Shown here: piece by piece, positions 34,563 to 38,105 of the stretch
How positions within the stretch are numbered: position 1 is the stretch's first letter
How the letters are laid out: every line of letters starts with the position of its first letter
Source: Methanolobus sp.
GTDB taxonomy: Archaea > Halobacteriota > Methanosarcinia > Methanosarcinales > Methanosarcinaceae
Assembly (NCBI RefSeq): GCF_016278365.1
Contig: NZ_JADQBZ010000005.1
Coordinates: forward strand, 62,001 to 126,000
Direction: 5' to 3'
DNA length: 64,000 nt
Program-made: the position numbers and the translations under genes
Notes under the pieces: generated by a model
Seen by the model: the letters and a program-made list of their open reading frames with translations, nothing else
The model's database searches: none
What the model was told of the DNA's origin: nothing

Positions 34563-35240
34563 TTATGAAATACTGTTTTCGAGCAGCAGCTCCTTGATCT
34601 TATCAAGGACGAGCACCGCATCCTGCCTCTTTATGTCTGCCTCATGCTCTCTGCAGTAGTTGAGAAGCTCTGCAGCCTTTTCTGCCGGTATTATCTCCTT
34701 CCGGATGGCTTCTTTTGTCAATCCAAAATAGCTCCTTTCAGTGTAATGTGTCTTTTTGGCAAGTGATATCAGGGCGATGCAGCTTTCTTCATCAATTATA
34801 TTATTACTGGATGCAGCAAGGAGGGTTTCTCTCATATTCACCATTGGGCTTGAAACAGGTTCGAATGTGTCCGGATTGGTTGCCACCGCAACCTCGTCAT
34901 CATCTTCAATGATTCCATCCCTGTACCACTCATAAATTCTCCCAACGCCAATCATGCCGTGGACATCAAGTTCACAAGCACGCAGGGCGCCCATGCTGCC
35001 TCCGCCCACAACAGTAACTCCTGCATCTATCGCCCGGACTATCTCCTTGTGAGCAACGGCCGCCCTGCTGAAAAACACTCCGTCAATAATGCCAATTAAA
35101 GTATAACCTGCCATGACTGCGTTCTCTATATTTCCCCGGAATACGGGAGGCTGGTACTCGACATCGAGTCTCTTCCTTGCATCTTCATGGCTGATGCTCG
35201 TACCTGTGAATACTAACGCCTTGCTTGCTTTTGCATTCAT
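34563..35240 (-). CDS. tfuA: TfuA-related McrA-glycine thioamidation protein
   Basis: A 225-residue TfuA-domain protein (VFTGTSISHEDARKRLDVEYQPPVFRGNIENAV, first part, then GYTLIGIIDGVFFSRAAVAHKEIVRAIDAGVTVVGGGSMGALRACEL, first part). With the YcaO partner it makes the thioglycine of methyl-coenzyme M reductase alpha subunit; it is thought to help deliver sulfur. The ATG overlaps the ycaO stop by four bases (ATGA), so translation is coupled. Presence of this pair is a hallmark of methanogens and methanotrophic archaea. Confidence 0.95.
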   Translation of the reverse strand: MNAKASKALVFTGTSISHEDARKRLDVEYQPPVFRGNIENAVMAGYTLIGIIDGVFFSRAAVAHKEIVRAIDAGVTVVGGGSMGALRACELDVHGMIGVGRIYEWYRDGIIEDDDEVAVATNPDTFEPVSSPMVNMRETLLAASSNNIIDEESCIALISLAKKTHYTERSYFGLTKEAIRKEIIPAEKAAELLNYCREHEADIKRQDAVLVLDKIKELLLENSIS

Positions 35241-36514
35241 TTTCTGACCTGTCGTCTCCAGGGACGCTCATCAGGAGCCATTTTCTGTTTCTTTCCGGCT
35301 CTAAGCCTGTTTCCCATGCGCTCTCTGTCGAGGGAGTACATCTCAAAGGCTGGTATGATAACCCTGATAACAGAAACTGGTATATTCTCCCTGGAGAGAT
35401 CCACGATTATGGCGCTGTCCACGACATGACTGAGTTGCTTGAGGGTAGTTCCGATATTTTCTGCAGGACTGCTTCCCGAAAGGTCTTTTATTTCATCCAT
35501 CGTGACCTTTTCCCCCTCCTCGTACCAGTACTTGTTCATGCGCCTCACTCTGTCGTAGCCTATCTGTCTCACAAAGCTCTCACGGTCAGTGTCTTCCCTA
35601 GCACCGTGTATCTGAACGACCCTTGACTGGGCCGCCTCGGTGAGAGCCCTTTTTACTGCTATCTCGGGTTTCAGGTGGCTCCCTGCCCCCATAACAAGCA
35701 ATGCCGGGTCCTTCAATCTCAAGTCATCCGTAGCCGCAACAACAGTTGTTATCTCTGTATCATGCGGCAGAATCCATAGTTTAACATCAACATCGTTATC
35801 GAGGAACCTTCTCAGCAGTTCATAGTTCTCTCCATCTCCTGCTGTCAGGACTATCTCTTTGCCAGGGAATCTATTAAATTCAGCAGTACTTAAAGCATCT
35901 CTCTCAATAACTTCAAGCAATCCATGAAGTATTGCTTCTTCAGGTATGTTGCCGGCAGCAAGTCCATTTGTATTGGACCTGAAAAGTTTCGCTGCCCTGC
36001 CAGGTGCGTTATACGGATGGAATATTGCATTTGCCAGAACAGCTACTTCTTGTTTTTTCAACATGTCCCATCCGGTAGTCCACTCTATCAGGTGCTCCGG
36101 GGAATATGTTTCGGATAACAGCAGGGTTGCAGGGTCTACTGCCGGGCCCCGGGCAAATGCATTATCAAAAGTATCTATAAAGTACGATGCGGAAATCTCC
36201 TCTTTTACATCCTTATTCTGGCCGCTTCTCTCTGCGAGGCATCTCTCATAACTTTCCATCATTGCCGAGATGCGTGCCTGCTTTTCTGTGCTACCTTTGC
36301 CTGAATATATGGAAATCGCTCCCTCTGCGGCACTTGGCCTCACCGTTGTGATAACAGGTACCCCTATCCTGTCAAGATCCGTTATGTCGGCAACCCTGGT
36401 GACTCCTATCCTGTTGAGGCTGTTTTTTGCCCGCTCAAGGGTGGCTTCTTCTTCGAAGACTCGCTGTGTCCCCCTGATATATAAAAGCGATTTGTCTATA
36501 ATTATCTCTGGCAT
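35237..36514 (-). CDS. ycaO: YcaO-related McrA-glycine thioamidation enzyme
   Basis: The ATP-dependent YcaO cyclodehydratase-fold enzyme, 425 residues, that activates the McrA backbone amide for sulfur insertion. Family segments include LNRIGVTRVADITDLDRIGVP, ISIYSGKGSTEKQARISAMMESYERCLAE (first part; the ATP-site Glu region) and NTNGLAAGNIPEEAILHGLLEVIERDAL. The frame begins at TTG 36556; I take ATG 36514, which follows AGGAGA at about 12 bases, longer than ideal. A TATA box near 36612-36625 on the minus strand gives a leader of about 75 bases. It is followed at once by tfuA. Confidence 0.94.
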   Translation of the reverse strand: MPEIIIDKSLLYIRGTQRVFEEEATLERAKNSLNRIGVTRVADITDLDRIGVPVITTVRPSAAEGAISIYSGKGSTEKQARISAMMESYERCLAERSGQNKDVKEEISASYFIDTFDNAFARGPAVDPATLLLSETYSPEHLIEWTTGWDMLKKQEVAVLANAIFHPYNAPGRAAKLFRSNTNGLAAGNIPEEAILHGLLEVIERDALSTAEFNRFPGKEIVLTAGDGENYELLRRFLDNDVDVKLWILPHDTEITTVVAATDDLRLKDPALLVMGAGSHLKPEIAVKRALTEAAQSRVVQIHGAREDTDRESFVRQIGYDRVRRMNKYWYEEGEKVTMDEIKDLSGSSPAENIGTTLKQLSHVVDSAIIVDLSRENIPVSVIRVIIPAFEMYSLDRERMGNRLRAGKKQKMAPDERPWRRQVRK

Positions 36515-36682: not shown

Positions 36683-36726
36683 AAGTGCTTATCTGGTTAA
36701 TCTATAAATGAGAGACAGGAGGAATT

Positions 36727-36882
36727 ATGAGAGACCAAAGGAAAAATAAGACCAGATCTGACGATGTCGGCTGTTTTATATCCAATTTCCATACAGTTAT
36801 CGCCGGGATTTCATCAGATGATCTCAACGACGAGGATATGGATCTCTGCCGCTTCATGGTGGGCGGACTGCAGGCAAAATAG
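36727..36882 (+). CDS. Unrecognised 51-residue protein between thioamidation and desulfurase genes
   Basis: ATG 36727 to TAG 36880-36882, with an exceptionally good ribosome site (CAGGAGGAATT directly before the ATG) and a strong TATA box 25-30 bases upstream of the leader. The product starts basic (MRDQRKNKTRSDDVG), then FISNFHTVIAGISSDDL, an acidic segment and CRFMVGGLQAK. It has two cysteines (residues 16 and 42) and no signal or membrane helix. I do not recognise a family. It lies 42 bases ahead of the cysteine desulfurase, probably in the same transcript, and divergent from ycaO-tfuA. It could be a sulfur-relay partner or a regulator. Confidence 0.7.
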   Translation: MRDQRKNKTRSDDVGCFISNFHTVIAGISSDDLNDEDMDLCRFMVGGLQAK

Positions 36883-36923
36883 GCCTGCAAAACTATTTTT
36901 ATTTTCTTGACGTAAGGACTCCT

Positions 36924-38105
36924 ATGTACGATGTCCACTCCATCCGGGAAGACTTTCCAGTGCTTAAAGAAGTTATCTATCTGGATAATGCAGCCACCAC
37001 ACAGACTCCGGTACCTGCGGTCCGGGCTATGGAGGAGTATTTTTTTAAGTATGCAGGTAATCATGGCAGAGGAGCCCACAGGCTTGCCCGTGAGACCACA
37101 AACCATTATGAGGATGCAAGGGAATGTGTCGCAGCTTTCCTGAATGCAGATGTAAAAAAGACTATATTCACAAGGAATGCAACAGAAAGCATAAATGTTG
37201 TTGCACGAGGTTTTCCCTGGGAGGCTGGCGACCATATGATAGTCACCCTTGTGGAACATCACTCCAATCTTCTTCCCTGGATGCGGCTTAAAGATGAGGG
37301 AGTGGACCTCACAATTGTAAAACCAGATATTACCGGTGTTGTTAATCATGGGGACATAAGTTCTGCAATCACCAGCCGTACGCGCTTGATAGCAGTCACT
37401 CAGGTGTCCAATGTATTTGGTTCCATACAGGATGTAAGCAAGGTTATCAAAGCCGCTCACGGGGAAGATGTCCAGGTGCTGGTGGACGGGTCCCAGTCTG
37501 CAGGGCATATGCCCGTAGACTTAGATTCTATGGCTCCTGATTTCTTTGTGACCCCGGGTCACAAAGGCTTACTGGGGCCACAGGGTACTGGTGTGCTGTA
37601 TATCAGAGAGCCGGATATGATCGAGCCGTTGTTCCTTGGAGGGGGAATGGTCCGTGCGGTGACCGATTCAGGATATGAGATCGAGGCGAGCCCTGCAAAG
37701 TTCGAGGCCGGTACTCCCAATATGCCTGGAGTCATTGGTCTTGGTAGGGCAGTCCAATATGTGAGGGATATCGGGGTGAAGGATATCGAAAGACATGAAG
37801 TGCTGCTTGCCCGGGATGCTGCCCGCAGGCTTGCAGGGATAGACGGGGTGGAAGTTTACGGACCAAAAGAGCGGTCATCTGTTGTGCCTTTCAATGTCGC
37901 CGGTATGAATGCGCACGATGTTGCCATGATACTTGACCAGACCAGGAAAATATGTGTGCGTAGTGGTTATCATTGTGCTATTCCCGGGATAGGGTTCCTC
38001 GGAGTGGATGGCACCGTGAGAGCTTCGTTCGCATTGTACAATACACAGGAAGAAGTTGACCAGCTTGTTGATACTGTCCTCAATATCGCCGCATTCGTTG
38101 CGTGA
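36924..38105 (+). CDS. Cysteine desulfurase (SufS-like, class V aminotransferase fold)
   Basis: A PLP enzyme of 393 residues that releases sulfur from cysteine as a persulfide. Family segments are YLDNAATTQTPVPAVRAM (about 19-36), FTRNATESINVVARG, the His near VEHHSNLLPW, DGSQSAGHMPVDLDSM, the PLP-Lys motif TPGHKGLLGPQGTGVLY (about 213) and the active-site Cys loop RSGYHCAIPG (about 350). AAGGA lies five bases before the ATG. Sitting divergently beside the McrA thioamidation genes, it may supply sulfur for thioglycine or for general Fe-S assembly; the first is inference. Confidence 0.92.
   Translation: MYDVHSIREDFPVLKEVIYLDNAATTQTPVPAVRAMEEYFFKYAGNHGRGAHRLARETTNHYEDARECVAAFLNADVKKTIFTRNATESINVVARGFPWEAGDHMIVTLVEHHSNLLPWMRLKDEGVDLTIVKPDITGVVNHGDISSAITSRTRLIAVTQVSNVFGSIQDVSKVIKAAHGEDVQVLVDGSQSAGHMPVDLDSMAPDFFVTPGHKGLLGPQGTGVLYIREPDMIEPLFLGGGMVRAVTDSGYEIEASPAKFEAGTPNMPGVIGLGRAVQYVRDIGVKDIERHEVLLARDAARRLAGIDGVEVYGPKERSSVVPFNVAGMNAHDVAMILDQTRKICVRSGYHCAIPGIGFLGVDGTVRASFALYNTQEEVDQLVDTVLNIAAFVA

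Follow-up and report, generated by a model that had tools for sequence, protein, structure and literature searches.

What is the short reading frame of 51 codons that lies upstream of a cysteine desulfurase gene (csd) in this Methanolobus contig, with McrA thioamidation genes on its other side, and if it encodes a protein, with which of these neighbours does the protein work? The window, by which we mean the whole 64,000-nucleotide stretch of DNA that was analyzed, contains the features listed in Table 1.

Table 1. Features of the small-gene locus, numbered from the first nucleotide of the window.
Feature	Position	Strand	Basis
TfuA-related McrA-glycine thioamidation protein	34563..35240	-	NF033432, 1e-87
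YcaO-related McrA-glycine thioamidation protein, divergent neighbour	35237..36514	-	TIGR03266, 7e-152
Small-gene TATA box TATATATAAA	36675..36684	+	Sequence; TATA-like elements at a similar distance in many Methanolobus relatives
Conserved leader GAGAGACAGGAGG, including the Shine-Dalgarno site	36710..36722	+	Comparison of loci
Small-protein gene (family A), 51 aa	36727..36882	+	ORF list, homologues, dN/dS, codon freedom
C-terminal segment: predicted helix (residues 35-46) and GG-x-Q-A-K tail	36829..36879	+	Alignments; fold of the protein alone
Hairpin TGCAGGC-AAAATAG-GCCTGCA across the stop codon, terminator-like	36869..36889	+	Sequence, RNA fold
T-rich element: hairpin tail and probable core promoter of leaderless csd	36890..36905	+	Position; missing csd Shine-Dalgarno site
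csd, SufS-type (class V) cysteine desulfurase, RSGYHCA active-site Cys motif	36924..38105	+	PF00266, 2e-119

The small gene and its start signals

The frame runs from the ATG at 36727 to the TAG at 36880–36882, and its 51 codons give the product MRDQRKNKTRSDDVGCFISNFHTVIAGISSDDLNDEDMDLCRFMVGGLQAK. A Shine–Dalgarno sequence, GGAGG, stands at 36718–36722. The spacing of the TATA box TATATATAAA is, as far as the sequence indicates, the normal archaeal distance for a transcription start at approximately 36705. The initial annotation had described the reading frame, the Shine–Dalgarno site, the TATA box and two cysteines in the product (C16 and C41), correctly in every case. A scan of the locus for sigma-70 promoters was set aside as inapplicable to archaea. 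On the minus strand, an antisense ORF of 268 aa (window positions 36702–37508) crosses the small gene into csd, and probably only shadows the conserved genes of the plus strand.

The leader GAGAGACAGGAGG followed by ATG occurs as one exact copy per genome in eight of the nine Methanolobus genomes, always at the small gene. The GAGAC immediately 5′ of the GGAGG is kept in many genera and at most family A loci, in the form GAGAGACAGGAGG or GAAGAGACAGGAGG, and this conservation of GAGAC is, judging from the loci compared, more than ribosome binding would explain. At one locus (L121) the family A leader is present as a tandem duplication.

Distribution and selection

Of 60 nearby genomes, 40 gave tblastn matches to the small protein, with E values down to 1e-26, and the best of these relatives have an identical start, Shine–Dalgarno site and stop. 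In a profile search the family matched 104 of 112 Methanosarcinaceae genomes, and 85 of the 86 that are of good quality; outside the Methanosarcinaceae, a class-level genome sample gave only two weak profile matches. The searches thus describe a family of approximately 46–55 residues that is, on this sampling, specific to the Methanosarcinaceae. Profile searches at the thresholds used gave no Pfam, NCBIfam or PDB family match to the small protein; a comparison of the locus with Rfam gave nothing above chance, and a plasmid collection contained no relatives of the gene. A family that has no Pfam or NCBIfam model is readily lost in annotation.

Comparison with four moderately diverged Methanolobus relatives gave dN/dS values of 0.16–0.30. 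The nearest relative gave 0.76, from too few changes to be informative. Synonymous codons vary freely among the 51 loci compared: the codon for the invariant F43 is TTC at 25 loci and TTT at 26, the invariant G47 is written with all four Gly codons, and the Leu, Arg and Tyr codons also vary. By these sequence measures the small ORF is a protein-coding gene under purifying selection at the protein level. The earlier proposal of a real gene is therefore upheld by homologues in the same reading frame, by dN/dS and by free synonymous codons; the search of relatives that it suggested found them, and neither of the outcomes that it named as refuting, a lack of homologues or a lack of frame conservation at synonymous sites, was observed. 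The short length of the ORF and the lack of a database family might be taken to indicate a chance ORF without a product. This idea is already refuted by the occurrence of the gene across the Methanosarcinaceae, by dN/dS well below 1, and by the conservation of both the Shine–Dalgarno site and the start.

Sequence and predicted structure of the small protein

In an alignment of 45 csd-linked relatives, the invariant residues are M1, G27, L33, F43, M44, G46, G47, Q49 and the final K51. The C-terminal end of the family reads F-M-x-G-G-x-Q-[AG]-K-stop, within an extended consensus L-x-x-E-D-x-[DE]-L-[YC]-R-F-M-[VI]-G-G-x-Q-[AG]-K. The N-terminal 20 residues vary in both length and sequence, and the N-terminus is probably disordered. 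AlphaFold2 predicted a low-confidence model for the small protein alone, in which the best-scoring part is a single helix comprising residues 35–46, followed by the tail GGLQAK.

None of the cysteines is invariant among the 45 aligned proteins: C16 is variable, and C41 is replaced by Tyr at 45 of the 51 loci. The two cysteines, which had been read as a clue to sulfur handling and whose conservation was to be checked, thus give no such indication. Because no Cys is conserved, the small protein is not a persulfide relay or carrier of the SufE kind. SufE has an invariant acceptor Cys, and SufU has a zinc site made up of Cys and Asp residues. The small protein resembles accessories of the SufE, SufU, IscX and ISD11 type in being encoded beside a SufS-type desulfurase, which it may modulate. 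It differs from SufE and SufU in being much shorter and in having no conserved Cys or set of metal ligands; it has no sequence or profile similarity to them (Pfam, NCBIfam, PDB), and its family is limited to one archaeal family.

Association with csd

The assignment of csd to the SufS type is consistent with a match to the sufS model TIGR01979 at 5e-120, with a score under the curated cutoff, and with the presence of SufS relatives among its PDB matches. A csd match was found in all 112 Methanosarcinaceae genomes. The pairing of the two genes was computed from the coordinates of search matches for 110 csd genes. In 103 of the 110 genomes the gene immediately upstream of csd, with the same orientation, is the small gene, and the gap between its stop and csd is 40–46 nt in 97 of them. 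The small gene and csd are not a decayed fusion, because the frame of the csd start relative to the small-gene stop is random (17/17/16). The link to the desulfurase suggested in the initial annotation is therefore strongly confirmed, by both the frequency of the pairing and the almost fixed gap.

The seven exceptions all come from genera g9 and g10, in whose eight genomes csd is retained and no small gene was detectable by profile search. It follows that csd can work without the small gene. Eleven csd positions that are near-invariant elsewhere differ in g9 and g10, including R56, V243, V246, E254, R275 and I336; since only two genera lack the small gene, shared ancestry explains these differences equally well. 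At the g9 and g10 loci L152–L158, which have no small gene upstream of csd, the T-rich upstream element is still there in most cases.

The genes on the other side are less constant. In Methanolobus and most other genera ycaO/tfuA are adjacent to the small gene, but the flanks read at Methanosarcina-type loci contain none of znuABC, tfuA, ycaO and orc, and the small gene–csd pair stays. The Methanosarcina-type flanks carry DUF531-like and GNAT genes and, in about half of the loci, LarE (TIGR00268, 6e-87). LarE is a sacrificial sulfur transferase. Both kinds of neighbourhood include sulfur-insertion enzymes, either YcaO/TfuA or LarE, a point in favour of the role in sulfur transfer proposed below. 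At L114, L117, L120, L124, L125, L127, L128, L130 and L140, LarE is located approximately 2.3–2.5 kb upstream of the pair, and its placement in the Methanosarcina-type genomes mirrors that of ycaO/tfuA in the other genera.

Since csd survives this complete exchange of neighbourhood together with the small gene, the partner is csd; ycaO/tfuA are no more than genes that happen to stand nearby in some of the genera. The association with a desulfurase is thus stable and independent of the surrounding synteny. Of the two neighbour links that had been suggested for checking, synteny with csd held, and synteny with tfuA/ycaO proved not to be general.

The adjacency to ycaO/tfuA in so many genera could be taken to mean that the small protein serves the divergent YcaO/TfuA enzymes, as a substrate (a RiPP-like precursor with a GG cleavage site) or as a partner (a helper in McrA thioamidation). 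It does contain a Gly-Gly, and the recruitment or delivery of sulfide equivalents has been proposed as the task of TfuA (PMC5589413). We nevertheless consider this very improbable: just four residues follow the GG, with no conserved core of Cys, Ser or Thr, and the idea is close to being refuted by synteny, as the Methanosarcina pair has csd but no nearby ycaO/tfuA. On the same grounds of the four-residue tail and the Methanosarcina flanks, we agree with the earlier view that this is not a typical RiPP precursor.

A second copy, B

More than one copy of the small gene is present in 44 genomes, and the second copy, B, is found in many genomes outside Methanosarcina. Methanolobus B keeps R-F-[MI]-I-G-G-x-x-K-stop, and lacks H-x-V-V, Q49 and the stop-codon hairpin. 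It is the first of three tiny genes in a row, with no csd there. In a tree, 12 of 14 B sequences group apart from the csd-linked copies with a support of 0.79, a weak signal at such a length. The retention of the C-terminal motif in B, in the absence of both hairpin and csd, implies that the motif works as protein.

The run consists of B (50 aa), a CxxC...CxxC zinc-ribbon protein (~55 aa) and a Cys-rich protein (59 aa), and is located at L088 4979–5131 (minus strand) and downstream (G000:C11:457181–457330). The 59-aa Cys-rich protein has no Pfam match. It was not found in Methanosarcina, is interrupted by stops in Methanohalophilus, and is present in 40 of the 112 Methanosarcinaceae genomes.

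The stop-codon hairpin and expression of the two genes

Between the small ORF and csd there is an element that is terminator-like by sequence, composed of the hairpin across the stop codon and a T-rich tract. The RNA fold of the hairpin has an energy of −12.3 kcal/mol (z −1.9), and its stem has at least six perfect pairs at 44 of the 51 loci. The Gln codon in the tail is CAG at all 51. Since this codon does not vary, and Methanolobus B lacks both the Gln and the hairpin, Q49 is probably held by constraints on the nucleic acid. A TAG stop contributes its G to the stem; after a TAA stop there is often an additional G in Methanolobus. The palindrome TGCAGG-N-CCTGCA was also considered as a genome-wide operator and rejected; the other Methanolobus copies inspected are mostly intragenic, with no shared regulon.

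The T-rich element, approximately 30 nt before the csd ATG, is also there in genomes that lack the small gene, and in most relatives no clear Shine–Dalgarno site precedes csd. For these reasons csd probably has its own leaderless promoter, which counts against co-transcription with the small gene. In two g6 genomes csd is 142–146 nt away, and the hairpin and T-run remain with the small gene. The simplest reading of these sequences would be two transcripts, of which the small-gene mRNA has a leader and a terminator and the csd mRNA is leaderless; a csd promoter that starts at the end of the terminator would explain the fixed gap.

A different arrangement, in which the ORF acts in cis as a leader, would make read-through into csd depend on whether ribosomes that have reached the stop codon mask the hairpin, as in translational attenuation. 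This would account for the widespread hairpin with a T-rich tract behind it, for the almost constant gap, for a Gln codon that is always CAG when codon use elsewhere is free, and for the way in which either TAG+CCTGCA or TAA+G+CCTGCA preserves the extra stem pair. In known leader-peptide attenuators, too, a short ORF with a terminator-like hairpin at its end precedes the gene for an enzyme. The small gene differs from them in having no run of regulatory codons, Cys or other, and in encoding a protein of conserved sequence, which is retained in a paralogue that has neither the hairpin nor the enzyme gene beside it. Taken with the probable leaderless promoter of csd and with the two g6 genomes, in which the hairpin has stayed with the small gene and not with csd, these differences make a leader unlikely.

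A possible role in sulfur transfer

The strongest argument for a role with the desulfurase is the genomic linkage, and it suggests that the small protein, in line with the sulfur-handling or regulatory role raised in the initial annotation, probably helps or controls sulfur release. Somewhat tentatively, we favour a protein that acts in trans on the desulfurase or on its sulfur transfer, as a non-catalytic modulator working via the C-terminal helix and tail. In this reading the ORF is a free-standing gene that has a TATA box, a strong Shine–Dalgarno site and a terminator-like 3′ end of its own; the helix and Lys-ended tail of its product would dock on the desulfurase; and desulfurase activity, or the onward transfer of sulfur, would thereby be modulated. 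There is room for such a lineage-specific accessory factor because most Methanosarcinales lack SufE, which is present in 10 of 132 genomes (PMC8351635).

The small protein may be real and yet have another target, for example a large complex, by analogy with MtrI and MtrR of M. mazei, in which case its adjacency to csd would reflect a shared sulfur or redox signal. In support of this, and counting against the desulfurase, the same C-terminal motif occurs in B, whose operon has no csd but unrelated genes for zinc-ribbon and Cys-rich proteins. Binding to large complexes is known for small proteins of Methanosarcina, and MtrI binds via helices and its C-terminus (PMC12774963, PMC13370731). AlphaFold2 predictions of fusions between the small protein and csd, which drew on the in-frame read-through available at 15 loci, showed no interface and gave a mean pLDDT of 26–43 for the small part, on a monomeric csd and a shallow alignment. 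On the other hand, across a dozen genera the small gene is almost always paired with csd, also after the complete exchange of neighbourhood, and this exceeds what co-regulation needs; B, moreover, differs in its middle part, with no H-x-V-V, and in the missing tail Gln. We regard another target as the main rival reading, though a less probable one than the desulfurase.

The modulator of the desulfurase can be described more specifically, at the cost of becoming unlikely as a whole: a mostly disordered regulator without conserved Cys might dock its helix and tail on the archaeal SufS, gate sulfur release and replace SufE/SufU in the Methanosarcinaceae, with the stop-codon hairpin doubling as the boundary of the csd promoter.

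Methanogens have to pass sulfur from cysteine to Fe–S clusters, tRNA and the McrA thioamide with SufE usually missing (PMC8351635), and M. acetivorans can dispense with SufBC (PMC10500019). In a genetically tractable family, a small protein that is almost inseparable from a SufS-type desulfurase provides a concrete handle on this route.

Relation to known small proteins

Small proteins tied to enzyme genes are of a known kind. Within the literature searched, where the motif RFMIGG also gave nothing, neither the present family nor its connection with an archaeal SufS-type desulfurase appears to have been described. MtrI (MM_2401, 68 aa) and MtrR (sORF16, 49 aa) of Methanosarcina mazei are likewise tiny, lineage-restricted proteins of the Methanosarcinaceae that had been overlooked (PMC12774963, PMC13370731). 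By their descriptions, both are set apart from the present family: MtrI, which binds Mtr, carries a four-Cys zinc ribbon at its N-terminus, reports of MtrR come from the genus Methanosarcina only, and neither is described as linked to csd. A catalogue of the small proteome of M. mazei lists 314 unannotated translated sORFs, and its main text does not mention a desulfurase (PMC11456600). The Methanosarcina orthologue of the small protein (~50–53 aa, MSEL...RFMIGG[MV]QGK) may well be among the small proteins detected in M. mazei.
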